A DNA stretch of 64,000 nucleotides, taken from the NCBI RefSeq assembly GCF_051622035.1, contig NC_135360.1, forward strand, positions 7,864,001 through 7,928,000, written 5' to 3'. This document shows positions 1 to 60,722 of the stretch, piece by piece (position 1 is the first letter of the stretch; every line of letters starts with the position of its first letter). This DNA comes from Arctopsyche grandis. Lineage: Eukaryota > Arthropoda > Insecta > Trichoptera > Hydropsychidae. A program made the position numbers and the translations under genes. Under the pieces are notes generated by a model. That model searched no databases. It was not told the DNA's origin and saw nothing but the letters and a program-made list of their open reading frames with translations.

Positions 1-780
1 CAACAACCACTATCACTACCTCAGGTAGGGCTGATTCCGATTTCTGAACTTCGTTAATCAATATGAACAACAATTTGAATTAATTGTAATTGATTTGTTT
101 GTTTATAAATTTTAGGTAGATTTTAGGTGACTAGCTTAGCCCCTCTAGTCCAATGATGGCACACCACTGATACGTATGTATGTATCTATGTATATTTTGT
201 TAAAGGTTGCAGGTATTTCAAAGAAAATATAATTGGACTCATTTAGGGGTTGAAATATAATTTTAAAGAATTTGTTGCACATTCTAATTTAAAACTTTTA
301 GTACAAAGTCTGTATTTTTTACGGCAAAATGAGTTCAATGAACACTAACGAAAAGTATTCAGCTCCGTTTGGGCTTCTTCGTTTCAAAGAAATATGTACA
401 TATGTGCATATATGTATGTATGTGCATACATATGTTCACTCATACGTACATACATAAATATGTTCACTCATACGTACATACATACATATGTTCACTCTTG
501 ACTATTCTATTGCTTAGTCTCATTACATACAACACATATTGAAATTTGATTTTATATATAAAAATTCTCGGTGACTTTTTTATATACATAGAACTTAACC
601 TTGTAGCAATGGTTCGTGAGACGCTCATCAAGGCTGTCAATATGGACGTATTTAATTGGCACGTTTCATATGGAATATTGGAAAATATTTGTCGACGACA
701 TGGCAAATATATCTACCCCTCCCCACCCCCCACCACCCACAAATACCCACACATGGCTTTTTATAATAAAATTTAGGGTT
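1..780. other. AT-rich non-coding stretch
   Basis: No supported gene. Positions 391-490 carry clustered TACA/TGTA microsatellite that forms short self-complementary blocks. The short ORFs here run through this microsatellite and show no family signature. Confidence 0.5.
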
Positions 781-1380
781 GGCGGGGTTGATTGATGTTC
801 GCGGGTATGTCAACGGCAGACGTTTCTTTTTCGACGATTCTTGCCTACCTACTCTATACGAAAACGAAAGTGGAAAAAATGAAATAAAATAAAAAAATAA
901 ATAACAATAATAAAAGGGAAGCCGAACGTCTCACTGTCGCCGCTGTAATCGGCGCGATTCCATTAAGCGGCGTGTTTTATTTTATTTTTGCAACGAGTGC
1001 GCTATAAATTCGGTCGGCTTTGTTCTACGGGGCGTATAATATAATATTATGTGGACACAAACAAAAAGGTGACTGTAGCCGTTTTATTTTCATTAATTTA
1101 AAACGAGTTGATCGTATATTGTATTGTCGTCGTCGCAGTAACGAACGGTCTGCCGGTCGCTCTGAACTGAGCTTATTTTCCCATTTTATCCCTTTCCGGT
1201 CGAGCGTTTTAAAAGTATTGCCTTCGAACGGGTGAAAAACTGTAATAAAATCGAGAAAAGCTCGTCGAACGCTTCACGTTTGCGTAATTTCATAAGCGGC
1301 GACCATTGAGTCTGCACGTCGGAGCTTTATAGTAAATGTCGATCGTAAAGGCTGTGGCGATAAATCAAATTAGGCAATTA
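781..1380 (+). promoter_or_regulatory. CpG-rich candidate promoter / 5' end
   Basis: This stretch is much richer in CpG and mixed sequence than its surroundings. It has a TATA-like TATAAA at 1003-1008 followed by GC-rich sequence (TCGTCGTCGCAG and similar at about 1125-1330). It lies upstream of, and on the same strand as, the gene whose last exons are at 9.3-11.5 kb, so it may be that gene's promoter or 5'UTR. No connecting exon or conserved coding start was found, so this is inference. Confidence 0.25.
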
Positions 1381-1633
1381 AGGCACTTTTTATTGCGTAC
1401 TAGCTGGTGTTGCCCGGCGTTGCTCGAGCGGGTAAAGGTTAGAAAAACATTCGAAATGCTCCGACCACTTTCAAAACTTTCCTACATATGATGTACTTTA
1501 GGCATATGTTAGGAATCATAACTTGATATCATGAAGGTATTTTATTTTTCTATTTATTACCCTCTCCCCCCCCCAATTTAAAAATTCTGATTTAAATAGA
1601 GCAATAATGAGCAGTTGATCTAGTGCAAAACAT

Positions 1634-2597
1634 CTAGATAATTGAATACGTGTCGCAAATAAGGGGATAACTATCATTTTATTTTAAATCTAGTTTTTTT
1701 TTATGGAATAACGTGCTATGTGGTTACATCATTCGTCCCCTCTATAAAAATATTCTCTATCTTTTTCGATTCTCCTGATGAGCCAACGTGCCGTTAGATT
1801 TTTGCACAGTGGAATAACGTCACTTCAAGTCCTAACATGGAGAGGCGCCAGTCGTTCTCTCTGTTAGATTGTTTTGTGTTATGGAATAGCTATGGAATAA
1901 CGTTGTAACTGCATACGCGGATCAAGTCATTCCACACGTTCATAGTGTTTTTCATATTTTTTGTTTTTATTTTTATATTTAATTAATCATGCACACTCGT
2001 CTTAACAGCTTGCTCCAAATTAACGAGTGTGGTATACAGATTAAGAACTATTCATTTTATATTCAAGTATATACCCATATACATATGTATTTATAAATGT
2101 ATATACATTAAACAAAACTAATATGGTCAAACATTGTACAGAAGTATCATATAAGGCAAATACCTATACAAACATCGAGTAACATCCACAAAAAACATCT
2201 ATGGACAAATTTGCAGCATTTATACAAATCAACGAAATTCAAGATTCTGAAATTTTGCTAGCTAGTGGGAATAGGTTGCCAATTAGTCGGATAAATTGGC
2301 AAACTCTGATAGCAAACGATGGACTTAGAGTCATTTATCCAAGGTCTGACCACCAGCAACCTGTAGTATTGAACCCGTGACAATTTTTTCGAAAGCATTA
2401 TGTATATGCTAACCATTAGTCAATGCTGCTGGTTGAATATACCTAATTTGATAACTTTTGATTTTTAAATAAAGTGTGTGTATGAAAATATATATTTTGA
2501 TTTCAAAGAAAGTAATAAATTATATTTTTCTTGAATTCTGTAAAATACAACTTTTGTTAGTTACCACCTTATTCGCGGCACGTATTCAATTGTCTAG
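1634..2597. mobile_element. DNA-transposon remnant with ~42-bp terminal inverted repeats
   Basis: Positions 1634-1674 and 2556-2597 are inverted repeats of each other over about 42 bp with a handful of mismatches; both contain TTGAATACGTG reading inward. The interior (964 bp overall) has no coding capacity, repeats the word ATGGAATAACG several times near 1703-1900, and contains a SINE fragment. No convincing target-site duplication was seen, so the superfamily is not assigned. Confidence 0.5.
2180..2436 (-). mobile_element. SINE fragment, subfamily 2
   Basis: The sequence matches the central block (ATTGGCAAACTCTGATAG at 2295-2312) and the diverged tRNA-like head (TATGCTAACCATTAGTC near 2406-2422) of the SINE copies at 36.97 and 40.55 kb. 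Read on the minus strand the tRNA head is the 5' end. The 3' hairpin tail is missing. It lies inside the TIR element 1634-2597. Confidence 0.6.
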
Positions 2598-2830
2598 TTC
2601 TCCGATGCAAGGTTTTTCAGGCTGTATTTATTAGGGGTGGGGAGGGCTCATATTGAGAGATTTATGGGTCAACTTTGCTGATCTTTAAAACCGCTTAAAT
2701 ATGAGAGTATGTATAATATTTATCAAAGGACGGTTTAAGCACAGATTGTTCATCAAAAAAACGGTTCATAAATTTAATATAATAATTAAAATAGGAATTT
2801 AATTATCATAATAAGGTTCATATTTTAATT

Positions 2831-3275
2831 TTTTTTTTTTTTTTTATTTTTTATTTTACATATATACCAGGAAGGCCTTACAGGTAAATCCCAATGCGCC
2901 TTCCTGGCCAATTACAAATACAAATGCAGCATTTTTTTATTATAAGTCGTTGAATTGCGAGACACTGAAAAAACTCGCAAATTAACGAGACATCTATGAA
3001 TTGTACATAAATTTTTATTGTACATCCATCAAATTTCAAATAGTGGTGACATAGTAGGTAGGAAGGATTTTTAGCCAATTTTTTTTTCCGGGAACCGTTT
3101 CAACAATGAAATCAGAGAAAATTGGCAAACTCTGATAGGAAACGATCAACCTGGAGTCACAAATCCAGGTCTGACCAACAGCATACTCTGAAAAATTCAT
3201 TTTCATTCAGGGATAGAACCCGGCACCTTCTTGACGGTAAGCAGAAGCTTAACGTCCGAGCTATGCTGCTGGCTA
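2831..3275 (-). mobile_element. tRNA-headed SINE, subfamily 1, near full length
   Basis: Read on the minus strand: a tRNA-like head at about 3274-3215, whose A box resembles TAGCTCGGACGTTAAGC and whose B box is GGGTTCTATCCC. Next comes a conserved middle (GTTTCCTATCAGAGTTTGCC), then a 3' end formed by an imperfect hairpin (GCCTTCCTGG / CCAGGAAGGC at 2869-2910), then an A-rich tail. The same architecture recurs at 40.1, 45.9 and 54.4 kb, which defines the family. An (AT)n tract abuts its head side. Confidence 0.8.
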
Positions 3276-3305
3276 TACGTATGTACACACATATATGTAT
3301 GTTAC

Positions 3306-3429
<124 letters not shown>

Positions 3430-4700
3430 AATTTTTATATTTATATATAATATATTTAATTTTTGACGTGTTAGGGTGTCTTATATGTGATAAAGGAAGG
3501 TTTGGTCGCTTCCGACCACAAAAATGCGATCACAGAATGTTGGTTCAGCTATCGAAAAATTGCTAAGGGTCTGTCTTAATTAAATTCTTTCAAAAATAGC
3601 TTATAACCTAATAGCTTATATAAAAAATAGCTTTACAAAATATATTTTTTTATTCCTTTGGCGACTCCCGTAAGCTTTTAGGTTGCAAATTGGTGATCAT
3701 TTTTGAAAATTTCAATAGATTTGGGCAATTTGAAAGTCCGCATCTTAATATCATAAAGCTGTAAATTTGACTTTAATTAATTTTATTACTACATAATACT
3801 CCATTTCAAATTTAATTAGTCTGCAGCAATTTGTAATAGAAGCCTAAATATTTTGTCTATTTTTTGTCGTCAAGTTTTATATTGAGGATGAACTTAATCT
3901 ATAAAATAAACTTTTACGGGAAATTGATTGTAAAAATTTCAACAGAGTTCTACGGCATAATTTTATTGTTTTGATGAAAAAATTCCTGAAACCGGAAGTG
4001 GAATTTTCCTTTTGACGCTTTCTCTTTTTTTACGGCTCATTTTTAGATCAAAGCCCTAACGGATAAAGTTTAAGTGTATCACATCGAGACTCAAATGCAC
4101 TTTTGAAAGCCTCCATCTATCGATTACATACTGATGAATTTTCACCAAACTGAAAGCGATATTATGCTACCATTTTCGCGCGTGAAATTTATTCCTGCAT
4201 TAATGTGAAAATTCGCTTGCATTGCAAAGCTTCCCCTCGTTGAAATTTTACCCTTGTGCATATATCTCTATTCGAAAACCATCATCACTCACAATTAAGC
4301 CTGACAATTTTCATCGACCCAAAAAGGTCATTCATTTTCGCATAATATTATTATACTGTACCTACGTACATCTACATACAATATTGAACAAGCTAAAAGC
4401 TTCGGAAAATTCAATAGACCGGAAGTTAAAGTTTACTTTCGCATCATATTAAATTTCCGTTCACTTCTTATTATTATGCATATTAAATTATCAGAAACAT
4501 CTTTAACGTGTAACTCGGTTCTGCGAAAGCCGATTTCTAAAATATGCTGAGACAAGGGAAGCGCAATTTGAATAAAGTTTCAATTTGTTCATTTGTTCAG
4601 CTTGCATTTTTGCATTAAAGATGCTCTGTAAATATATTCATTAGATGATAAAATAGTAGAAGTAGTCAGTTATTATTTATATTATAGTTAGGACAAATAA
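3430..4700. other. Non-coding, carries two CCGGAAGT boxes
   Basis: No gene supported. CCGGAAGT occurs at 3992-3999 and 4419-4426, in contexts (AAACCGGAAGTGGAATTTT) like those in the dispersed repeat at 38.8-39.4 kb. It is therefore probably a decayed copy of that repeat. Confidence 0.4.
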
Positions 4701-4704
4701 TAGA

Positions 4705-5160
4705 CATGTCCGATAGTAAAGATGAAGAATTGAAAAGACGTATGAAACTAAGCTGGAATGCATTTTGGAAATTAAACGCCAATGTGCCATACACTCAAAT
4801 ATTCCAATGCACTCAAAGAAGTACGGAACTCTCGGCATAACGAGGAAAAATAGGAAATTTAATAAGTGAGTAAGAAGTATAGAGTCGTGAAGTATAACAG
4901 TCGATAGAGTGGTGAAAGTGAAGATATTTAAATGGAAATGGGCAGGTCACGCAGCTAGAAAGATGGACGAAAGGTGGACAAAGGAAGTGCTGAAATGGTA
5001 ATGGTGTAAAAGGGTGAAATGAAGGCTACAAGAAAGATAAGTAGATGAAATTAGAAAAAATTTCGGGTGAGAAGGATGAGAATTGCCAAAATAGGGACGA
5101 ATGGAAGCATAATTTGAGAGTCCTTCATCTAGTAGTGGATGGTGAATAACTGTAAATGAT
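4705..5160 (+). mobile_element. LINE 3' end remnant (reverse transcriptase C-terminal region)
   Basis: Broken plus-strand frames read ELKRRMKLSWNAFWKLN (about 4727-4778), WAGHAARKMDERWTKEVLKW (about 4939-5000) and, near the end, an ESFI..WMVNNCK-like tail. This is the distal region of insect endonuclease-reverse-transcriptase LINEs, in which the typical text is E-x-RRRI...W.AF.KL and WAGHV.R..D.RW. Frames are interrupted by stops and shifts, so it is dead. A second copy with the same polarity follows at 5.33 kb. Confidence 0.65.
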
Positions 5161-5329
5161 AATGATATAGCTGGTGAAAAAAAATTCGAAATCGAACAAT
5201 CAATAAATTCAAATATAATCCCAAATCACACATATTATTGAATTAGTTCTGCCTAATTTTTTACTTTTAATGTTTTGAATTGATAAACGCTGCATGCTTG
5301 GCATAGAAAGCGGAATACGTGGGTATGTA

Positions 5330-5615
5330 TGGCAAGGATAGTGGATATATTGGAGAGAGCGAAAAGATTGAAATGGCAGTGGGTGGGTCACGTAGCTAGA
5401 AGAATGGAAAAAAGGTGAAAAAAAAGTGCTAGAATGGTACCCTAGAGAATGTAAAAGGGTAAAAGGAATACTGCGAAGAAGATGAATAGGAGAAATTAGG
5501 AAAATGTGTAGGGTAAAATGGACGAGAGTTGCGCAAAACAGAGACGAGTGGAATTGTTCTGGAGAGACCTTCATCCAGTAGTGGATAATGAATGGCTGTA
5601 AATGATTATGATGAT
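5330..5615 (+). mobile_element. LINE 3' end remnant, second copy
   Basis: The plus strand reads LERAKRLKWQWVGHVARRME (about 5349-5408), then broken equivalents of the KVLEWYP.ECKRVKG segment and a terminal segment like the one in the preceding copy. Both copies end in a similar TGTAAATGAT-type tail (5150-5166 and 5598-5612). Stops show it is inactive. Confidence 0.65.
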
Positions 5616-8231
5616 ATAACTATATATATTTTATTCAATGTGTGTATTTAAATTTGTCATATTCTCTTACATTCGGTTACAGTTCGCAATTAATCATTTA
5701 AATATACATATAGTCCTGACTTGAGACTATATTTTATATATGTAAAAATGTATGTATCATACATACATACATACATAATCCATATAACTAGGATAACTAA
5801 TGAACTAGTTTGTATTATACTTTGTGCATATAAAAGTCATGTATTTGAAAACCTCGACTCTTGAAAAATGAAGGTTTATAATTATAGTTGAAAATTTATA
5901 ATATTTCGAAAATGTTTTCGATTACACAGTGAAGATAATCGTTAATGTATACACATGTATGTACATCTAGTTTAACCACGCTAGAGATAAATGTGTGTAT
6001 GTATGTATATGTACATACATAAGTTAGTCGTTGACTATACCAAATTGCTCCCAACAAAGGCGACTTTATATAGCTTTTCTTTGAAATGTTGTCGCTCAAG
6101 TTGGCTCGACAGAAAAGGATTAATTAATTAATGATCAGATCGAAGAAGATCCCCGAGGAAATCCGGATACGAATTGCCTGACAGACTTTTCCTTGACATT
6201 TTCCACACACACACACATGCGCGATGACTAATGTATAAGTAGATTAGAAAAGCGGTACGCAAAGGAAATAAGGGCAATTTGGAAACGAATCGTTTTCCCC
6301 AGAGTTGATAATAATACTAACTATGTATATGGTAATTTTCCAGACATTGTCCAATAAATCGTATCTGGGAGCAGGCACGCTCCCCGTACCGTTTCACTGC
6401 CTCTTTTTTTGGACGATTCGGGACATTTTTTGCATCCATTCATTCATTCATTCGTTCGCTTAAAAGGAAAATTCCTTTTCTATTTTTAACACACGAGATC
6501 GTTTTTTTTTTTTTTGTTCATTTGAAAGCTCGAGATTACGTAAACAAGCCTAGGAGAGCGTCAGCGGAAAAAACGCAGAAATTATGCGTCGTTATCCTAA
6601 TTGAAGATCGTCTAATCTGGCATTGAAATACTACCCGATAATAATCGTCCGAGAGAAAGAGAAAAAGCTATATTTAGAACTTCGCTTATATGCGAATTTA
6701 TGTGACGTATAATATTGTGGCGAGGAGCTTAGACTTGGAAGTAAAGTGTATTTCAAACTTGACTGCCGTATTTCAATTACTCGTATTCTCCACGTGTACA
6801 CATACATATATGTACATGAAATATTAGATATATATGTACATAGATACATAATTTGAACCTCCTTCCGTTTCCTTATGACCACCATTAGTTTCCGTTATTG
6901 ATCTTGTCTTCGAGCACCCACTCGTGTAGATTGAAAACAAACTCGACCGACTCATTTCCACTCGATGCGATCGTATAAATTTACTTCATTACTTTCGATC
7001 GATTTCTATATATATTTATTATATGTGCGTGTGTATTTTTTGATGTAATTTTGTCTTAAAAATAATATGCGCCGTATAATTTTATACTCTCGTGTAATTA
7101 TGTCTCGTCGTCATTGCTTTTAGCGTCTGAAGATTCCACTTTTGACGTAATTATATTCGATTACGAAAGTCGATCGATGTTGTTATGATAATAAAATTTC
7201 TCGTCTTTGTAATTTTGAGATTTCTCATTAAGAGTGAATGTAAATATGTACATACATATGTGTAAATTTTGCTACAAGTGTGTGTAAACGCGGAATATTA
7301 GCTATATGAAAATTGTTTGCAATGTGTTTTGGGTGAATTATCTATGTATTATTATTATGTAATGTGATTGTATGAATAATTTAATGAACGGTTTTAATTT
7401 TAAATTATTATTATTTACTTTGTATATGGATTATTTTTTTCTTAATGGAACTAACGTTGCACAGTGTGGCAGTTTGCGGATCTGCCTAGTTTAGAAAAGT
7501 ATTAAAATGTTATCGTTTCAGATTGTTTAATATTTATACTTTGATGTACTATTAATAAAATTTTATTTATTCATCTCAAAAGTCCGTCACATTTGATCAA
7601 ACTTGTGGCTCATGATATCCAATGAAATAGATTTGTACCGGGTGCGTTTTTAACTCTCCGATTGGAAGACAATTATGGTCTAATCGAAAACTTTGTTGAT
7701 AAATTTTTGATTGAATATCACTGAAAAAGATATCTTTTAATATTTTTAGTTAAAATTTTACCAAACATTTAATTTTGAAGAAATTTTAATTAGAATATCG
7801 ACCCCCCGAGTTTGATTTTTTGTAAAAATTCAAAATTTAAACAAGGTTTTTAAAGTTGACTTCCGATTGACTTCGCCATGATATTTAATCAATTATTTAA
7901 GTTAAACTATTCAACTATAAGAAACTGTAAAAATTTGCTGCCTAAATGCCACAAATCTTTATTTTGGCCATTGCTATACCGATGAACAAATGTTAACTTT
8001 TTTGTATCATCATTGATAGGTAACTTTTTGTGATATATTTTTTCCCACTTATTACGAATACATATGATAATTAAATATATATCAATCGTATAGTTTTTTC
8101 TATGCAAAATGCAATGCAAACTCAATTCTGTGCGATAGTAAACTACTACTTTCGGTTCACTACTTTTGTCTTGAAATATCACAATATCTAAATACTTATA
8201 TCGACATCGATAACAAATTTTTGGATGCGGT
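5616..8231. other. Non-coding, probably intronic or intergenic
   Basis: No supported gene. Contains TACA/TGTA palindromic microsatellites near 5755, 6000, 6800 and 7245. A moderately CpG-rich segment lies at 6120-7000. The 129-codon minus-strand ORF at 7907-8296 runs into the foldback arm and shows no recognisable domain. Confidence 0.4.
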
Positions 8232-8607
8232 GCATCCGCTCTAAAATCGCCAGACAAATTGAACGACAGATTAACGGACGGCTGCTTTAAATGCAATTCT
8301 CGTCTTCTCGAATGATAGATTGCACATCAGATGACGGGTAACCTTTCGATGTGCACAGATGCAATTATTAAAATTGAGTTGGATCTTTTAGGCGAGTTTA
8401 ATAAGGCAAGATTCGATAAGTTCCGAATCTTGCCTTATTTAACTCGCCAGAAAGATCCAATTCAATTTTAATAATTGCATCTGTGCACATCGAAAGGTTA
8501 CTCGTCATCTGATGTGCAATCTATCATTCGAGAAAACGAGAATTACGTTTAAAGCTGCCGTTCTGTTAATCTGTCGTTCGTTTTTCTGGCGATTTTAGAG
8601 CGGATGC
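8232..8607. mobile_element. Foldback element: ~184-bp inverted arms around an ~8-base loop
   Basis: Arm 8232-8415 is the near-perfect reverse complement of 8424-8607. The outer ends are GCATCCGCTCTAAAATCGCC and its complement; the inner ends are GGCAAGATTCG / CGAATCTTGCC around an ~8-base loop. A few mismatches (for example ACGGGTAACC versus its partner GGTTACTCGT) show slight ageing. No protein is encoded. No clear target duplication was found; AACAAA occurs on both outer flanks but not flush with the arms. Confidence 0.85.
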
Positions 8608-9341
8608 AACAAACCCCAAATTTTTAAATTATTATATGCCACATCTTTTGAGATATAGCGTTTTTAAAACAAAGGGAGCGTGTGTCTAGGCAAATCTGCA
8701 AATGGCTACACTGTGCGTCGGTAAGGATTTTTTATCAATACATATTCGCAACTTTGTGAAACTTTTTGCGCAATATAAAAAAGCAAAAGTCATAAAATTT
8801 TACGATAGTTAATAAAAATTTGAAAGTTTGCTTTTATGTTGTAAAAAGAGCAAAGAAGAGAAAACGGTGAAAAAAATTATTATTTTACACTATGAGCCCG
8901 TAACTCGAAGGGCAACTAACGGTAAGATCGTCGCGAGTGAACAAGCAGTTTTTAAATATAATAGTAGTCTACAAATTTATTGAAAATTTGGTAGATCTAT
9001 AGCTATAGTTTATCGTGCACTGTTGAAAGTAAAAGATTTGAGAGTTAAAAGGCGCGTCAGAGCCAAACAAATGTATGCACATATCCAATCATTCCACATA
9101 ACCCATACGCGTATAAACTTCCACTTTGACGTCCAAAATGTGAAAAGTGCGACATTATTTTCCGTATAAAAGTGTTTGCTTAGGATCCTCGAAGACAAAA
9201 GGGAAAAAAACGTGTGGGGAAAAAACTTTCCAGCAGACGGATCTGATCGCACTGTACAAACACACCCACGTCCTTTGAAGTCAAAGCACACTTATTATTT
9301 AAATTCGCCACTTATTTATACCGTTATTTTTATTGCTGCAG
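8608..9341. other. Presumed intron upstream of the 9342 exon
   Basis: AT-rich with no coding signature. It ends in the acceptor ATTGCTGCAG at 9332-9341. The upstream exon that should supply the protein N-terminus could not be located in the window. Confidence 0.4.
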
Positions 9342-11454
9342 GATGGTGTCGTGGACGTGTTCAACTCACCAGCTGGCAGAGCCGTCATCTCGAACTGCTC
9401 CCCGGCCAAAATGAGAAGTCCCGTGTTCAAAACCAGTAAGCGCTCTGCAAACACAGATGTCACCAAATTCCTACTGGGCCAGGACAACTTCGACAACGGA
9501 AACAATTGTGTGTCCGCAGTCAAGTTTGAGGAGAAAGTCGTCATATTCGAAGAGGACGAGAGCAGGAGTAAGATCCAGCAGAACGACTGCTGGCAGAGTC
9601 CAGACCTCCAAGACAGGCTGTCCCAGGGTGATTCCAAGTGCGACGAGAGCAGGAACAACAACGTGGGTCTGACCAGGAGGATAGTGACGTTCAAAAACGA
9701 AGATGTCGATAGGGGGGCGACCGTCGTCGAGGAGGATGACGAGGATGCGAGGATCAACGAAAAGATCCTACGGCTCAAAAATCATTACGAAAGAGGTTTT
9801 GTGGCCGATGAGAAGTGCGATATACTCAAGAGGATGCTTACTGGATTTTTGAGTGGGTGGATTTTCGCCAAGAGTAGCTCAAGCGGTGGAAAGTGGAGAA
9901 AGAGGAAGTCCAGTGACGATTTATATAGAGAAGCATCCATGGCGTTGGGTATACCCTGCGAGATGACGGATTCGTGTCGGTGCTTGGACTGTCAGGTACA
10001 TATGTATATGTAATTCTTCATATTATATAACTTAGTATTTATAGTTGACTTTTTGAGAAACCGTAATAAACATACAAGAAACTGACAAATTAATACTTAT
10101 CATATAATTGGATTTTTTTTTACCCAAAAAAGGGGTTTTAAAATCGATTTTCAATTTATAATATTTAAATATGTGTTTTTTAATTTAAATATTTCATTAA
10201 GATTGGCCACAGCCTATTTACTCATCTTATTGATAAAGCACTTGCTTGCCCCGTATGCGGTCATCGACTAAACCCAGAATGTGGTCACCAATGTTTCATC
10301 CAACCTCTTATTTATGTTAAAATAAAATTATGTAATGTAGCGTGGACGTGTAGAGGGGTTTCAGATATCGGAGTGAAGACGCAGCTAGTGCGGTACAGGT
10401 AGTTTATTGGTCTGAACCCGTCAGCTTACCAACTCCGAATGATCCACGGTCCAAAACCACCTAATTATAAGGTCGCGAGACTTTATTGGTCGGTGGTCCT
10501 TACGGCATAAACTCTGAGTTGATGAAAGCTTGAAAAATAAACTCGTACCAGAAGAACATCCCAGGCTGGAAGGTAATACGGGATAAGTACGCGTGGAAAC
10601 GTGAGATTCATGAGAGGAGCCGACGAAACCGCCTACACCCACTTCTAAGCTTAGAGATTGTACTATTATTTACTTACTATTATTTATTTACTATTATGTA
10701 CTTAGTTATTGTATCATTTTCGAGTCTTCATCAAGTCAGAGTTTGTGCCGTAAGGTGGACCCCTTATTGATTATTGTATAATGCTCTTTTATACGGAGGT
10801 CTTTTTGGCGTGAACGCGAGATTAGGTAATCAGCGCTTGACGAGCGCTACACACCTAATCTCTACGTTACAGTAATAGTAATAAAAATATCTCAAAAAAA
10901 ATTTTAGCACTTTAAAAACCGGATGAAAGTTCAGTTTAATTGAACCCACAATTCATCTTAATGGTTTTGCATTCAAAACGCTCCCCTCCCATAGAGCCCG
11001 GTCTCAAAGTACCAAGTGGATAAAATTCCAAAAGTATACACCTACATACATATAAACTTGTTTTGTTTTTTGCCAACAGTGTAACTACTTCGACTGTGGT
11101 GACAGCGACAGCGACACCAGCGAGATGTCTATCAACATGAACGAATGCGACGTGGAGGAGTGGCCTTGCGCGGAGATAAATCCGACCGAGAAGGCCTTCG
11201 ACGTGTTCTACTACGAGGACGAGGTGAAGAAGAAGACGGAGACGACGACGTGCTGCGACGTGACGTCGTCGAAAGAGGAAGATGGCGACGCAGCGACCGC
11301 AGCGCCCGCGACGGCCGGCGACGCAAACTCCGGCGCACCGGCGGCCATTTGCCAAGATGGAGCCGAACTCGCTCCGACACTCGAAATGGCCGCCGGCACG
11401 CCAGTCCTGCTCGACCATCTTCTCAACACGCCGCTCACCTGCACGCTGCAGTGA
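9342..11454 (+). CDS. Cysteine-motif protein A (last two coding exons; N-terminus not found)
   Basis: Two phase-0 exons, 9342-9995 (218 codons) and 11080-11454 (124 codons plus TGA), joined across TGTCAG^GTACAT and CCAACAG^TGT. They give at least 342 residues; the start lies further upstream. Counting from the first visible residue: an acidic tract (VEEDDEDAR) near 127, an amphipathic stretch rich in K/L, a basic KWRKRK at 184-189 (possible nuclear signal), and a cysteine cluster with CRCLDCQ at 212-218, continuing in exon 2 with CNYFDC and an acidic GDSDSDTSE. The cluster reads C-x5-C-x-C-x2-C-x6-C. The tail is alanine/threonine-rich. Gene B at 45.5-49.1 kb shares the cluster and the following GD-D-DT text, so the two are paralogues. 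I do not recognise the family. Metal binding by the cysteines is only inference. A solo LTR sits in the intron. Confidence 0.75.
10336..10871. mobile_element. Solo LTR in the gene A intron (4-bp target duplication)
   Basis: Begins TGTAGCGT and ends ACGTTACA (imperfect short inverted termini, TG..CA). It is flanked by GTAA at 10332-10335 and 10872-10875. The 536-bp body carries AATAAA-like and TATA-like words and no ORF. That suggests a solo LTR of a retrotransposon; a 4-bp duplication is most usual for the Gypsy group. It contains an internal inverted repeat (10492-10526 versus 10727-10761). It interrupts only the intron, so splicing of gene A need not be affected. Confidence 0.65.
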
Positions 11455-34954: not shown

Positions 34955-35590
34955 GTGTTAGAAAGAGTGAAAAGATTCAAATACCTGGGTACCTGGCTGA
35001 ATGAAGAGATTAATTCAGATGAAGATCTAAGAATCCGCATCGAGATGGCCAGAACAGCATTTATCAAAATGAAGGCGACTCTTACAAACAAGCTTCTCAA
35101 TCTTCGTACGCGTTTGAGATTCGCGAAGAGCTACGTCTGGACAGTGTTACTACATGGATGTGAAACGTGGACTCTGAAGACCAGGATAATCAGCCGCATC
35201 GAAGTTTTTGAGATGTGGGTCTACAGGCGTATGCTGAAGATCCTGTGGACCAAACAAATATCAAATGAAGCTGTCCTTGGCATGATAGGGAGAGGCAGAG
35301 AACTTGTTTCTGTCATCAAACGGAGAAATATGGAGTACCTCGGACACATGATACGGGGTCCCAAATACGAATCTCTCCGTTTGATAACCATGGGGAAAAT
35401 AGAAGGTAAAAAATGGATTAGCAGAGAAAAGTTGTCTTGGCTTCGAAACATGCGCATGTGAACCGATATGAGCGCCGAAAATCTGTACCGAGCCGCTGAA
35501 GACCGATGCGGATATCTTCAAATAATCTACGAGGTGGTCGCCATCGTCCGGATGCGGACAGAAGAATGTTTGTATAAATTCGCAATGTAT
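34955..35590 (+). pseudogene. LINE reverse transcriptase, C-terminal fragment
   Basis: The frame from 34955 carries RVKRFKYLGTWLNEE, then RTAFIKMKATLTN, LLHGCETWTLK and VFEMWVYRRMLKILWTKQIS, then YLGHMIRG. This is the canonical distal part of insect endonuclease-reverse-transcriptase LINEs (thumb/connection after the polymerase domain). A TGA at 35459-35461 sits where W is normal, and the frame continues past it (TDMSAENLYRAAEDRCGYLQ), so this is a recent nonsense mutation in an otherwise 5'-truncated copy. No YxDD catalytic motif or endonuclease domain is present. Confidence 0.85.
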
Positions 35591-45478: not shown

Positions 45479-48400
45479 ATGTCGCGGGAGAAGTCCCAGG
45501 AGCCGCCAACATCTTCAGCTGAAAATTTGCTCAGCGGAAGTGGCGCTTCCACCGAAAATATCGGTAAAATAAATCGATTTTTATACACGAAAGCAATGAG
45601 GTGCAAAATTTTCAGTAGCACCGAAAATGATGAAGTATAAGAATATCGATTTTATTTTTCAGACAACAACGCTTACCTGAATCCAGCTGCAACCACCCAT
45701 GGGATTCCTAGCAGTCCACCGCCATCATACCAACATGTAATAGAAGAGGTAATCAATTCACTTTGATAAATCAAACAAATCCGAATTCCAATCGAATATT
45801 CCAGATTCCAATCGAATATTCGAATATTCGATAGTCGAATATATGTATGTAGTCAGCCTTTTTTGGATACTCGAAAAATCGAATATTTTTCATTTTACTT
45901 GATTATTATCTAATATACATATTTTATTTTATTTTTATTTTTACATATATACCAGGAAGGCCTTACATGTAAATCCCAATGCGCCTTCCTGGCCAATTAC
46001 AAATTACAATTACAATTACAAATGCAGCATTTTTATTACAAGTCGTTGAATTACGAGACATCTAGAATTGTTCATAAATTTTATTGTACATCAATCATAC
46101 TTCAAATAGTGGTGACATAGTAGGTAGGAAGGATTTTTAGCCAATTTTTTTTCCCGGGAACCGTTTCAACAATGAAATCAGAGAAAATTGGCAAACTCTG
46201 ATAGGAAACGATCAACCTGGAGTCACAAATCCAGGTCTGACCAACAGCATACTCTGAAAAATTTATTTTCTTTCGAGGCCCGGGCCCAGGGATCGAACCC
46301 CGGCGCCTGTCGACGCTAAGCAGAAGCTTAACGATGGACCTATGCTGCTGGCTATGTATATCTAATATATAATTTCGAATGAGACTTTGCATATACATAT
46401 GTATGTATGTATGTATGTAACCTTCGTTCATTGGTTCGTAGATGACACACTCGATTTTTTTTTTCGATTCATAGGCGCCGATTCGATTTTTTTCGATTCA
46501 AAGGATTCGAAGTCCCCGGGGGCGAAGGTTCCGGGAGTGAAGGCGCGGTGGCGAAGGCGCGGGGGCGAAAGCGCGGGGGCGAAGGCGCGGGGGCGAAGGC
46601 GCGGGGGCGAAGGCGCGGGGGCGAAGGCGCGGGGGCGAAGGCGCGGGGGCGAAGGCGCGGGGGCGAAGGCGCGGGGGCGAAGGCGCGGGGGCGAAGGCGC
46701 GGGGGCGAAGGCGCGGGGGCGAAGGCGCGGGGGCGAAGGCGCGGGGGCGAAGGCGCCGGGGCGAAGGCGCCGGGGCGAAGGCGCGGGGGCGAAGGCGCGG
46801 GGGACATTGTCGTCGCGACGTCGCACTGACATTGTCGAGACTATGAACTAGGCCTAAGACTTAGCTTTCCTGATCTGCTACGCCGCTTCCTCTTGTTCCC
46901 TCCGCGACACAAAACATAAATAATATCATTTCAAATTTTTCCGACGTATTCAAACAATTCCCCAACAATAAAAATAAAACATTAGTTTATCTCCAGTCAG
47001 TGCCGGCCTTATACCCTATGGCAACCTCGGGCATTTTTTTCCAAGCGCCCCTAGAATTTTTTTATAAAAAATTGGTTACCATCCTCCTTTTTCCAGGCTT
47101 GGAACCGGTAGCAAAGTGGTTAACAAGGTTTCCCAACCTCAGGTGGATTTAAAAATAAATAAAGAAAATAATATTTCAGAAGTGAACTTTCCGAGTCTTT
47201 CTTTCAACAAAATCTTTAATTAAAGCTGAAAAATCAAGATTTTCAGCGATATAATTTTCAGTAGATAGAGTTTCAAAATTGGAAAGTCTATTTTGTGACA
47301 TTGGAGACTGGAGATAAGTTTTATTCAATTTAAGTTTCGAAAACCTACGTTCACCACTTGGTACAGTTTCACGCAATGTCAGCAAATTTTGCATATTTAA
47401 AAATAAACGTTTATTTGAAAAAGAACATCGTACCAAATTAATATTGAAATTAGAAAGCTGAAATATTGTAATTGTACCGCTAATGAGGTTGCTTCGTGAG
47501 CTACACCTGGATCTTTTCAGTATCAGATAAATTAATTAAAGCATCATGAACGTCAACAATTTGATATCGAACTGCTTTGATACTTGCTATTTTCGCTTTC
47601 CATCGTGTGTCAGATGATAAGGAATTATTATAATTGCACGTGATCAGTTAGAATCTTCCAGCGATATATTGAAGCCGACAATAGTCTTTGAAAAATACTG
47701 AAACAATCTTTGAAGAATATTGAAAAAAGTTTGCGATGTTATAGAAGGTTTCGCAGCGTCGTTGAAATGTTAAACTAATTTTTTTGATAAGCATAAGAGA
47801 ATTATAATTCAAAAGGGAATGTGTCGTCACCCAATTAATAAAATGTGCCGAGTACAAATGTTTGATCTTAGAAAGTAGAGGCGCCTTTGACACTAATCTA
47901 AAAAAAATTAAGGCCTTTGGCACTCTAATTTCAAATTTTAAAGCGCCTACGGTGCATCGTGCGGCGCCCTAACATACTCGGCGCCCTCGGGCACAGCCTG
48001 ACCCAGCCCCCCCCTTAAACCAGCACTATCTCCAGTATATCTAAATTATTGACATACAACTTAATTAAGTTAACCATTGAAATAAACAGACAGAGAAAAC
48101 CAAACTCTTCACAAGATGACCGTAGATTATATTATAAAAAATACCTTCTATCGTTTTTTTGATTTCCTGCTCATATCCATAATTTTACTGACTGATTCCT
48201 TTGAAGTTTTTCAAACAATTTCAATGATTGATTCTATTGAGGTTATAAATTGAGTAGGTACATACTTAAAAACATCTTATATGTAATTTCAGACACGCCT
48301 AACCGCATTAACTAACTACGACCAAACTCCGGTGAAATCTCGACTGCACTCTTCAAAGCGATCCAGCTTCGATTCAATCAGCCAAAACTCGAACCCTGAA

Positions 48401-49128
48401 CAATCAACACCGACCAGGTCAAGCTTCGTTAGAAGAGCCAACACTATCTCCACGGACGATTCCTCATACTCGAACGGAAATGAAAGCAAATTCGACGAGA
48501 ACTGCTCAAAATTAACATTGGACGATCAGGAGAAGGAAGTGGACGGAAGCGAGGCAGATCTGCTGTCCAACGCAGCACCCAGCGAAATATCCTTATGGCA
48601 AGACTATCAGGAACCTTCGACTTCTTATGATGCCAGCTCTCGCCAACTGGACAATGATAGTGTCAAAACCCTGGCCGTATCTCAGATGGGAGATCGGGAT
48701 TCTGATGACCAGGACACGTATATGTATGAGAGCATCGACAACTATGAAGAAGAAGCGACTAAACCAAATAACGACTACAACCGCAATAAAAAGAAAACTC
48801 CCGTCAGGCAGAAGGCTATTATTGAGGTCCTTTTGAGCTTTTTCATTACTACTGTGAAACTTATCGATCTTTTTAACTGTGATATTGTCCGTTTCAGGTT
48901 GTTGCCAACAAGACGTCAAAAGTGATGTACGCAGCTTTGGCTAAGGAGCTGGGTCTCCAATGCAGCATGTCAGATCAGTGTCGATGCGTGGACTGTCAGG
49001 GTGGATATTTGAGGTGTGGTGATGCAGATGGTGATACTGGTGGTGATGGTGGTTTGGGTGCTGGTACTCCCATGTTCGTGTCTGAAGCTTTCGGTCATGG
49101 AATAGCTCCAGCTTGTCAAATTATATAA
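45479..49128 (+). CDS. Cysteine-motif protein B, paralogue of the 9.3-kb gene
   Basis: Four coding exons: 45479-45563, 45663-45748, 48293-48826 and 48898-49128 (311 residues). Junctions are ATCG^GTAAAA / TTTTTCAG^AC, GAAGAG^GTAATC / ATTTCAG^ACA and ATTGAG^GTCCTT (weak donor) / GTTTCAG^GTT. The ATG at 45479 follows an acceptor-like ACATTTCAG at 45413-45421. Features: serine-rich N-terminus; PPSY (residues 48-51), a PPxY WW-domain ligand; a long S/D/E-rich region; then C257-x5-C263-x-C265-x2-C268-x6-C275 with CRCVDCQ, followed by GDADGDT. The cysteine block matches gene A at nearly every key position. Gene A has an intron right after the Q that gene B lacks. The family is not recognised; an adaptor or nuclear regulator role would be a guess. 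The 2.5-kb intron holds a SINE, a minisatellite and a hAT element. Confidence 0.75.
45915..46355 (-). mobile_element. SINE, subfamily 1, full length, in the gene B intron
   Basis: Antisense to gene B. Head at 46353-46270 with B box GGGGTTCGATCCC; middle block 46180-46210; hairpin 3' end at about 45953-45990; AAAATAAAATAAAAT-type tail on the minus strand. It is the best preserved copy of the head in the window. Confidence 0.88.
46535..46805. repeat. GC-rich 14-bp minisatellite, ~19 copies
   Basis: The unit is GCGCGGGGGCGAAG, almost perfectly repeated, with single-base variants near both ends. Because 14 is not a multiple of 3, all three frames read the same 14-residue period on each strand. 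That explains the long repetitive ORFs seen here in several frames; they are not genes. The array interrupts a very AT-rich intron. Confidence 0.95.
46998..48028 (-). mobile_element. hAT element with perfect 8-bp target duplication
   Basis: Flanked by TCTCCAGT at 46990-46997 and 48029-48036. Termini are CAGTGCCGG (left) and TAGTGCTGG (right, inward), with subterminal CCTCGGGC on both sides. The 1031-bp length is far below an autonomous hAT, so it is an internally deleted derivative that kept part of the transposase. It is inserted in the gene B intron in antisense. Confidence 0.88.
47176..47940 (-). pseudogene. hAT transposase remnant (zf-MYM / DUF4371 type)
   Basis: Minus-strand frames contain SDTRWKAKIASIKAVRYQ (about 47616-47563) and, after stops, RRFSKLKLNKTYLQSPMSQN then AENLDFSALIKDF (about 47355-47185). 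The first matches the TRW.A...A...L region, the second the C-terminal hAT dimerisation domain (ERSFSKLK.IKTYLRS.M.Q.RL..L), of ZMYM1-like hAT transposases. Frames are broken, and the N-terminal BED/MYM finger and catalytic DDE parts are missing. It is contained in the element with TIRs at 46998-48028. Confidence 0.85.
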
Positions 49129-53225: not shown

Positions 53226-53849
53226 TATATTATATATTACTTACTCATGTCTTAAACTTGAAATAGCGACTTCACACAAAGCTACACCCTATTATGTCCT
53301 TGCTGATGCTGTGCGTCTAGTAATCCATTTCTTCCTTATATGTATGTATGTATGTTACGTCGTAACGAAAATTTTCCTTATAAAATACATGTATACCTAC
53401 ATATATAAATACCTAACCGCAAAAAGTTTTTACTTATGTTATTTGGTGTATTTGTGTTTTTTAGTATAAATAAAAAAATATACTTATTAATCGTAATTAA
53501 ATGTAATAACATGTAATTGTACAATATAAACTTTATATTGCATATATAAAACTCAAAAATGATTTATTATTGGGAGAATGTAATAAATTTTGTAATGCAA
53601 AGAAATTTCAATTGTTTTTTTTTATTTTTCAATCGTATGGCAATTTTACACATTTTTTTGTTTTATTCTGTTATTTTCAGACAACTTGAGAGATATTACA
53701 AAATATATAAAAATGTATTACAATTATGAGGGCTAAATAAATTAAATGATGGTGGGATTTGATGAACGACTATTAATTTATTTTCTATTTGTGCCGTATT
53801 GTGATTATTGACCATTCCCAAGTAAATTTGTAAATTTGATATATATTTT

Positions 53850-54134
53850 AATCTGGAATTGTTGAGCAGTTTTCGGAGCGTTTGTCTTCAAAGTGACGAA
53901 ACGTCGAAACGAAGGTCAGATAAGCATTTGGATATCAAAATAGAAGAAGTTTTTCTGGACGATGTGATATGGGAGGACGAGTCAAATGATGATTCTCCAG
54001 CAAACGTTTGTAATTCCCCCGTCAATGACGATGAAAATGAATGGGAATCGCACTCAACATTCGAAAACAGTCATACTGGAGAAAAACCACACCGATGTCA
54101 AATTTGTTTAAAATCATTCACACAAAAATCTTAA
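53850..54134 (+). pseudogene. Broken, inverted copy of the ZAD zinc-finger gene
   Basis: The plus strand reads LELLSSFRSVCLQSDETSKR, the acidic linker (IKIEEVFLDDVIWEDES...), then jumps directly to SHTGEKPHRCQICLKSFTQK and stops. It therefore lacks the ZAD exon, the first fingers and everything after half a finger. It is inverted relative to the intact genes at 55.0 and 59.6 kb and closest to them in the linker. The sequence after it (54141-54175) resembles 59243-59290. Confidence 0.85.
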
Positions 54135-54991: not shown

Positions 54992-56264
54992 TTAAAGATC
55001 ACGTAAAGGGGGAGGGGGGACCCTTGCATAAGTTTTGCATGAGGGCCCAAAATTCATAGCAAAGCCACTGCTCTCGGCATGAGTTATCTTATGGGCAAAA
55101 AGTTCGGATTTGTAAGCAAATGGTTGGAAGCAAATGTCGCATTTGTGGCATTTTACTTTGTTGTGAGTTAACAAATGTCTCACAAGGCAAATTTTGACTG
55201 TAAATGATTTTAAACAAACATCACACGTGTATGGCTTTTCACCAGTGTGAGATCTATTATGTATCGCAAGGGAACATTTTTCGATAAATGATTTTAAACA
55301 AATTTTACATTTATATGGTTTTTCACCCGTGTGAGTATTCTTATGTGCCAAAAGCTTAGATTTGCGAGTAAATGATCTGGAACAAACGTCACATTTGTAC
55401 GGTTTTACCCCAGTGTGAATTACCAAATGTCTCATAAGGGTGCATTTTTGAGCAAAGGATTGGAAACAAATATCACATGCGTGCGGCTTTTCTCCAGTAT
55501 GCGATCTTTTATGTGTCGTAAGGGAAGATTTTTGTGTGAATGATTTTAAACAAATGTCACATTGATGTGTTTTTTCCCCGATGTGACTGTTTTTATGGAG
55601 AATAAGTGAAGATTTGTAAGTAAATGACTTTGAACAAGTGTCACATTTGTACCGTTTTACCCCAGTGTGAGTTATAAAATGTCTCACAAGTGAATATTTC
55701 TTAGCAAATGATTTTGAACAGATATCACATGTGTGTGGCTTTTTTTCAGTATGGGATCTCATATGTTTCACTAGTTCAAATTTAATAGTAAATGTTTTTG
55801 AACAAATTTCACATTTTAATGCCGAGTGCGATTCCCATTCATTTACCTCTTCATTGACAAGGGAATTACAAACGTTTGCTGGAGAGTCATCATTTAACTC
55901 GTCCTCCCATATCACATCGTCCAGAAAAACTTCTTCTATTTTGATATCTGAATGCTCATTCGACCTTCGTTTCGACGTTTCGTCACTTTGAAGACAAACG
56001 CTCCGAAAACTGCTCAACAATTCCAGATTTTTGGCACAAGACAGACAAATCCTATCCGGCAGCCCGTCATCTTTATTAACCTGCAAATATAAAGAAAGGT
56101 GCTATATAATGAGACTGTATTAAGGTGACAACAGGTTAAAAGTAACTATTACCGACCTGAAGCCGACAACAGCTCCAAATGCGTTGTGCCAGTGGATGAA
56201 GATTATCATGGATGGAAACGTGAGATTCGGGGGAAGCAGAAAAAAGGCAAAGTCTGCACTGCAT
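54992..56264 (-). CDS. ZAD-C2H2 zinc-finger protein, 9 fingers
   Basis: Two exons: 56264-56157 (36 codons, ATG at 56264) and 56080-54992, joined by a 76-bp phase-0 intron (CTTCAG^GTCGGT / TTTGCAG^GTT). They give 398 residues. The N-terminal ZAD zinc knuckle has C3/C6 (QCRLC) and C48/C51 (ICLSC), split by the intron. An acidic linker (EEVFLDDVIWEDE) follows, then nine tandem C2H2 fingers with TGEKP-like linkers, and a short tail ending PPPPLRDL. ZAD proteins are insect nuclear DNA-binding factors that dimerise through the ZAD. The start is the ATG just before QCRLC; no upstream in-frame ATG was found. The sister gene at 59.6-60.7 kb shares exon structure and upstream sequence to about 56490, so this is a segmental duplication. 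DNA target unknown. Confidence 0.9.
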
Positions 56265-59640: not shown

Positions 59641-60722
59641 TTAAAAATCGCGTAAAGGGATAGGCGGTACTTTTGAATAAGTTTTGCATGAGGGCCTCAC
59701 ACTGCTCTCAGTGTGAGTTTTCATATGAACAAAAAGTTCAGATTTGTAAACGAATGGTTGGAAGCAAATGTCGCATTTTACTTTGTTGTGAGTTAGCAAA
59801 TGTCTCGCGAGGGAATATCTTTTAGTAAATGATTTTAAACAAACATCACACTCGTGCAGTTTTACCCCAGTGTGAATTACCAAATGTGTCTCAAGGATGC
59901 GTTTTTGAGCAAATGATTGGAAACAAATATCACATGAATATGGCTTTTCCCCCGTATGAGATCTTTTATGTGTTGTAAGGGAAGATTTTTGTGTGAATAA
60001 CTTTAAACAAATTTCACATTGATGTGGTTTTTCCCCGGTGTGACTGTTTTTATGGAGAATGAGTGAAGATTTGTAAGTAAATGACTTTGAACAAGTGTCA
60101 CATTTGTACAGTTTTACCCCAGTGTGAGTTATAAAATGTCTCACAAGTGAATATTTCTTAGGAAATGATTTTGAACAGATATCACATGTGTGTGGCTTTT
60201 CTTCAGTGTGGGATCTCATATGTTTCACTAGTTTAAATTTAAGAGTAAATGTTTTTGAACAAATTTCACATTTGAATGCTGAGTGCGATTCCCATTCATT
60301 TACCTCGTCATTGACAGGGGAATTACAAACGTTTGCTGGAGAATCATTACTTGACTCGTCCTCCCATATCACATCGTCCAGAAAAACTTCTTCTATTTTG
60401 ATATCCGAATGCTCATTCGACCTTCGTTTCGACGTTTCATCACTTTGAAGACAAACGCTCCGAAAACTGCTCAACATTTCCAGATTTTTAACACATGGAA
60501 GACAAATTCTATCCGGCAATCCGTCATTTTTTTTAACCTGGAAATGAGAAAGGTACGAGACTAAGTATGAGACTGGGGTAAAATGACAACAGGCTCAAAG
60601 TAACTGTAATCGACCTGCAGCCGACAACAGCTCCAAATACGTTGTGCCAGTGGATGAAAATTATCATGGATGGAAACGTGAGATTCGGGGGAAGCAGGAA
60701 ATAGGCAAAGTCTGCACTCCAT
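59641..60722 (-). CDS. ZAD-C2H2 zinc-finger protein, 7 fingers (duplicate)
   Basis: Exons 60722-60615 (ATG at 60722, 36 codons) and 60537-59641, with a 77-bp phase-0 intron (CTGCAG^GTCGAT / ATTTCCAG^GTT). They give 334 residues. The ZAD has C3/C6 (ECRLC) and C48/C51 (ICLPC). An acidic linker almost identical to that of the sister gene follows, then seven C2H2 fingers. Relative to the 9-finger gene, two fingers' worth of sequence between fingers 5 and 8 is missing, and the last linker is shortened (HNKVKCDIC). The frame is intact and substitutions are scattered, so it may be functional with an altered DNA target. Upstream sequence is shared with the sister copy to about 60930, so it probably has the same promoter. 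Confidence 0.9.

Follow-up and report, generated by a model that had tools for sequence, protein, structure and literature searches.

Two diverged DUF4802 paralogues in Arctopsyche grandis: a shared cysteine module, CaaX-type ends and a possible role as lipid-anchored adaptors

Can a short cysteine-rich module that two otherwise dissimilar genes have in common tell us what these genes might do? The question is raised by a stretch of 64,000 nucleotides of Arctopsyche grandis (contig NC_135360.1, positions 7,864,001 to 7,928,000 of the forward strand; hereafter the window). A first-pass annotation had noticed two genes here, A and B, and had read them as a local duplication in which only the cysteine module stayed conserved, pointing to that module as the functional core. 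We asked whether A and B belong to one family, what they share besides the block of cysteines and which kind of protein they might encode.

Gene models and the region common to both genes

Gene B was found where it had been annotated, as an open chain of four exons with GT-AG borders (Table 1). This was the sole open combination of exons among the splice sites tried; the donor of exon 3 (GAG/gtccttt) looks weak. The predicted protein comprises 311 amino acids, from MSREKSQEPP to APACQII. A 71-nt intron (48827-48897) lies directly before the module and is absent from gene A. The reverse holds for an intron within the cysteine block: B reads through CRCVDCQ without interruption, as had been noted, whereas A has an intron after CRCLDCQ. 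Splicing at this site is backed by the Pfam profile PF16060 (DUF4802), which gives 57.9 bits for the spliced sequence of A (60 aa given) versus 45.1 bits for the unspliced one (35 aa, to the stop). The last exon of A then reads from CNYFDC to LTCTLQ and the stop codon. The splice acceptor at 9342 suggests an exon further upstream in gene A, which may be non-coding because an ATG follows at residue 24. The 5' end of gene A was not found, and the known gene consists of two exons.

Table 1. Positions of the features of genes A and B within the window.
Feature	Position	Strand	Remarks
Gene A first known exon (body, beginning of cysteine block)	9342-9995	+	654 nt; to CRCLDCQ
Gene A intron inside cysteine block	9996-11079	+	1084 nt, phase 0; absent from B
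Gene A last exon	11080-11454	+	CNYFDC, acidic text, insert, AGTP tail, CaaX, stop
Gene A AGTP tail	11392-11451	+	ends in CaaX box CTLQ, 11440-11451
Gene B exon 1	45479-45563	+	ATG start at 45479, MSREKSQEPP...; GT donor after 45563
Gene B exon 2	45663-45748	+	bears PPPSYQHVIEE; PPSY at 45719-45730
Gene B exon 3	48293-48826	+	body, much S, D and E
Gene B exon 4	48898-49128	+	DUF4802 module, AGTP tail, CaaX; stop ends at 49128
DUF4802 (PF16060) match in gene B	48910-49092	+	model 1-61 of 64; E 2.2e-20, 81.6 bits (genome profile search)
Gene B five-cysteine block	48961-49017	+	C-x5-C-x-C-x2-C-x6-C; residues 257, 263, 265, 268, 275
Gene B CaaX box CQII	49114-49125	+	read from sequence; prenylation predicted

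The five-cysteine block C-x5-C-x-C-x2-C-x6-C and the acidic text behind it are indeed common to A and B, both on the plus strand. In a BLASTP alignment 21 of 44 residues of the module are identical (51.2 bits, E 1e-14). The Smith-Waterman score of 118 compares with 27.3 ± 5.5 for shuffled sequences, none of 1000 shuffles reaching it. No convincing similarity was detected between the bodies when residues 1-240 of B were aligned with residues 1-180 of A, a range that leaves out the insert after the module of A: the score was 48 versus 36.5 ± 6.1, and 49 of 1000 shuffles scored as high. The richness in S, D and E that had been put forward as a distinguishing mark of B did not hold up, with these residues making up 29% of the whole protein in B and 27% in A. 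In the body encoded by exon 3 of B no Pfam family was matched above its cut-off; a Calcipressin match at residues 44-146 stays below the cut-off of that family (E 0.05, 13.8 bits).

Intron 2 of gene B contains 20.4 copies of the 14-bp unit CGGGGGCGAAGGCG at 46517-46803. On both strands several frames run open through this stretch, which we read as a simple repeat and not as a gene. Within the same intron, a frame at 47176-47535 (minus strand) resembles by eye the C-terminal part of a hAT-type transposase; it gave no Pfam match.

Elsewhere in the window, C2H2 zinc-finger frames were found at 54992-56101 and 59641-60594 on the minus strand, with ZAD-like starts of 25.2 bits (below the cut-off) and 30.3 bits (over it), respectively. 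By eye, the plus strand shows a piece of the ZAD/C2H2 kind at 53826-54134, where zinc-finger matches remain below their cut-offs, and at 34955-35461 something like the end of a non-LTR retroelement protein, for which Pfam matches are at chance level only (E 0.18). Two single frames lie 1.1-7.2 kb past the end of the window on the minus strand (C6 7929139-7930413 and 7934006-7935208). Each combines a ZAD-like start (zf-AD 27.4 and 23.6 bits, both below the 28-bit cut-off) with an ISXO2-like transposase domain that passes the threshold of PF12762 (E 1.5e-10 and 1.4e-14), and one possible reading of the pair is a host-transposase fusion that was duplicated within a cluster of ZAD genes. Scanning for tRNAs found none. 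On another contig (C1:36084329-36085669) we came across a COX1 sequence that covers the Pfam model in full, contains 11 TGA codons and is open under the invertebrate mitochondrial code; either mitochondrial DNA was inserted here recently or the assembly joined separate sequences.

Family membership and the residues that the profile expects

Both proteins belong to DUF4802. In hmmscan B matches positions 1-61 of the 64-position model PF16060 with 79.1 bits (E 2.8e-22) and A positions 1-50 with 52.3 bits (E 6.8e-14), the curated cut-off being 27 bits for the whole-protein score. No other Pfam family was found above its cut-off when the proteins were scanned. The two genes are thus paralogues of one family with diverged bodies, as had been proposed, and not members of unrelated families; this part of the question is settled. 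The pair likely arose by local duplication. With the family A and B have in common the stretch before the block, the five cysteines, Q-x-x-Y and the AGTP tail. Each also departs from it: A by a long insert that separates the acidic stretch from the tail, B by deviating from the family preference in QGGYLRC.

When the 476-Mb genome was searched with PF16060, three places were retrieved, and the two over the cut-off are B and A; the search went exon by exon and scored the best candidates only, so that a diverged or split copy could escape it. The third place (C5:25260436; E 0.6, 19.3 bits) lies below the cut-off and shows no convincing gene by eye. Searching with the last exon of B alone again gave B and A as the two candidates. 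The pattern CRCxDCQ occurs at four places in the genome, two of which are A and B. Neither of the other two was taken as a relative: one reads by eye like what we take to be a Niemann-Pick C1 exon, the other has no frame of note.

Beyond this genome, a pattern scan of genome contigs had 21 matching stretches and yielded one locus, in a Sphingorhabdus MAG. Its similarity extends over 17 residues with 59% identity, at an E of 3e-5 that is relative to the candidate stretches only, and was taken as chance. Among 49 pattern-matching stretches of viral contigs there was no relative, and neither was there one among solved structures in the PDB, where the best E values of 0.53 and 0.52 are at chance level. 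In the open-licence full-text literature we found no mention of DUF4802, PF16060 or IPR032061, the last presumably being the InterPro number of the family. The CRCxDCQ strings were not found in the literature either, and among the matches listed for PPxY and CaaX none concerned this family, judging by title and the start of the abstract.

Which residues the family expects was assessed by probing the PF16060 profile, not the Pfam alignment itself, with altered copies of the module of B, which scores 82.5 bits when unaltered. Conservation of the cysteines outside this genome could be checked indirectly in this way. Replacing each of the five by alanine lowers the score to 77.1, 77.1, 77.1, 77.1 and 77.3 bits, a cost of 5.2-5.4 bits per residue, and the cysteines are therefore features of the family; all five are present in both A and B. 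The non-cysteine single alanine changes tried cost 4.0-5.6 bits: Tyr33 gave 76.9 bits (cost 5.6), Tyr7 77.0 (cost 5.5), Arg25 78.0, Asp28 78.3, Gln30 78.4 (cost 4.1) and Gly15 78.5. Taken together, no single change tried costs more than those at the five cysteines and two tyrosines, and other conserved residues are nearly as costly. Among the combined changes, the stretch MFVSEAF replaced by alanine gave 72.8 bits and Ser21 together with Gln23 78.9 bits. Three Asp of the acidic text cost just 4.6 bits together (77.9 bits), and changing GTP to AAA in the tail just 3.7 bits for three residues (78.8 bits). The exchange of CQII for alanine left 82.5 bits unchanged, the CaaX end lying outside the Pfam model.

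Some changes raised the score. Val27 to Leu yielded 84.3 bits, SNYFD in place of GGYLR 93.3 bits (a gain of 10.8), and the CNYFDC and acidic text of A placed in the module of B 89.3 bits (a gain of 6.8). Judged by the profile, A keeps the family form of the QGGYLRC segment and B has drifted from it.

The AGTP tail, the CaaX ends and the PPSY motif

The cysteine module is not the only part that has been kept. The C-terminal part of the profile (about positions 49-61) is matched by B up to position 61 and by A only when its tail is grafted: in whole A the match stops at position 50, short of the tail, and with the insert left out and the spacing of B not copied it covers model positions 1-43 (59.6 bits) and is not extended. 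The module of B scores 63.3 bits when cut at residue 49, 82.3 bits with its own tail and 73.6 bits with the tail of A, which adds 10.3 bits. Ten computer shuffles of the tail of A, grafted in the same way, gave 62.5-65.9 bits, all ten below the tail itself, and a hand-scrambled tail with the last letters of A retained gave 66.2 bits. Because the graft surpasses the scrambled and shuffled tails, it is most likely that the tail of A derives from the family tail and has diverged.

Both proteins end in C-a-a-X with an aliphatic a2 and a last residue of a kind that FTase or GGTase-I accepts, CQII in B and CTLQ in A, and the box follows the shared AGTP motif at a similar distance. The earlier statement that the cysteine module alone stayed conserved was thus too narrow. 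Over the window and 30 kb of flanks the CaaX pattern stands at 50 of 8314 frame ends (frames of at least 4 codons; 0.6%). For longer frames the counts are 11 of 1726 (at least 30 codons), 4 of 378 (at least 60) and 1 of 78 (at least 100); they include the ends of A and B, whose last-exon open frames measure 132 and 81 codons, respectively. The probability of finding both of two ends in CaaX form by chance is about 4e-5 to 1e-4, a figure that overstates the case somewhat, the pattern having been chosen after both ends were seen.

Published data on prenylation bear on these boxes in part. CaaL/I/M sequences are targets of GGTase-I, and CQLL, CTII and CTIL were prenylated in a yeast assay, CQLL mainly by the human farnesyl enzyme, CTII and CTIL being shifted without it (PMC11152559). 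Neither CQII nor CTLQ is named in the main text of that study. Prenylation substrates are described as having a small, flexible and preferably hydrophilic linker before the box, and GGT1 as favouring chiefly leucine and methionine as the final residue (PMC1175975), where B has isoleucine. By eye, the linker of B agrees in part with this description; that of A agrees less well, the stretch before its CaaX box being more hydrophobic.

The PPSY motif ascribed to B was recovered at residues 48-51, within PPPSYQHVIEE, and is the sole PPxY of this protein. A PPxY arises by chance in about 2.8% of 20000 shuffles of B; the motif alone is therefore weak evidence. No PPxY is present in the two known exons of A, nor in any plus-strand frame of the 20 kb before the window or of window positions 1-9341. 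Likewise, tblastn with the N-terminal part of B returned no second copy of the PPPSY exon upstream of A or across the 94 kb searched locally.

A possible function, its alternatives and related systems

DUF4802 is a Pfam entry of unknown function, for which the CaaX ends of A and B and the PPSY of B give a functional lead. Our preferred reading, held tentatively and at somewhat less than an even chance, is that A and B are diverged DUF4802 paralogues that act as prenylated, membrane-tethered intracellular adaptors, with DUF4802 as interaction module and the PPSY of B as docking site for a WW protein. Both would be intracellular and mostly disordered, and prenylation at the C-terminal CaaX box would tether them to membranes, perhaps by a geranylgeranyl group at CQII of B and a farnesyl group at CTLQ of A. 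Together with the AGTP tail and the conserved stretch on its N-terminal side, which may be a short helix, the DUF4802 block would form a small interaction module near the membrane, stabilised by metal, which the block probably binds, or otherwise lipid-modified. Through its PPPSY, B would bind a WW-domain protein, a Nedd4-family ubiquitin ligase being the likeliest candidate, and bring it to membrane targets, an arm that A would lack. An AlphaFold model of the module has a mean pLDDT of 42.8 and is uninformative on a helix or a metal site.

The five cysteines also allow for a zinc-binding interaction fold in nucleus or cytosol, the CaaX-like ends being coincidental and the PPSY incidental. Evenly weighted, spacing-fixed cysteines are typical of metal sites, and such weighting and spacing are seen for all five. 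In addition, the chance frequency of PPxY in the shuffles (2.8%) and the position of the CaaX region beyond the Pfam model fit with this explanation. It does not account for the finding that two of two proteins end in CaaX after an AGTP motif, compared with about 0.6% of frame ends, and we consider it unlikely. Multiple palmitoylation of the cysteine block as a patch, in addition to the prenyl anchor and with no metal-binding fold, would likewise explain cysteines clustered beside an acidic stretch in a probably prenylated protein, and is consistent with the low confidence of the block model. However, Tyr33, Gln30, Arg25 and Asp28 are costly to the profile as well, as would be expected of a specific fold or interface, and the last cysteine of the block stands 33 (B) or 115 (A) residues away from the CaaX cysteine rather than adjoining it; we regard such a patch as distinctly improbable.

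Finally, one of the genes could be a duplicate in decay that no longer works. The departure of B from the family in QGGYLRC, where SNYFD for GGYLR gains 10.8 bits, the 20-copy 14-bp repeat in its intron 2 and the weak-looking exon 3 donor might be taken as signs of decay. Yet both frames are open with GT-AG introns, the five cysteines are kept and both proteins clear the Pfam cut-off by a wide margin, and we regard decay as very improbable.

Returning to the reading of A and B as membrane-tethered adaptors, a wider proposal for the family can be formulated, which we regard as possible and on the doubtful side. DUF4802 proteins would be lipid-anchored intracellular adaptors. Duplication would have preserved their cysteine module and prenylated tail but not the docking arm, which diverged, such that B, and not A, would recruit a WW-domain ubiquitin ligase or a Yorkie-type protein to membranes; the lipids might differ as well (geranylgeranyl versus farnesyl).

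Ras and Rho proteins are CaaX prenylated proteins. Prickle is described as farnesylated (PMC3715439). A and B resemble these proteins in the C-terminal cysteine at position -4 and the aliphatic a2, but contain no GTPase, LIM or other known domain, DUF4802 alone being above its cut-off.

With regard to the docking arm, Commissureless, PRRG4, Ndfip and FAM189A2/ENTREP carry a transmembrane segment. They are described as membrane-anchored PPxY adaptors of Nedd4-family ligases, and B would likewise join membrane attachment and a PY motif in a small adaptor. B differs from them in having a predicted lipid anchor instead of a transmembrane segment and a single PPxY, and no sequence relation is claimed: the presumed likeness to Comm/Ndfip-type adaptors is one in working, not in membership. 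Were prenylation and WW binding through PPSY to prove true, the transmembrane Nedd4 adaptors would have a lipid-anchored equivalent in insects.
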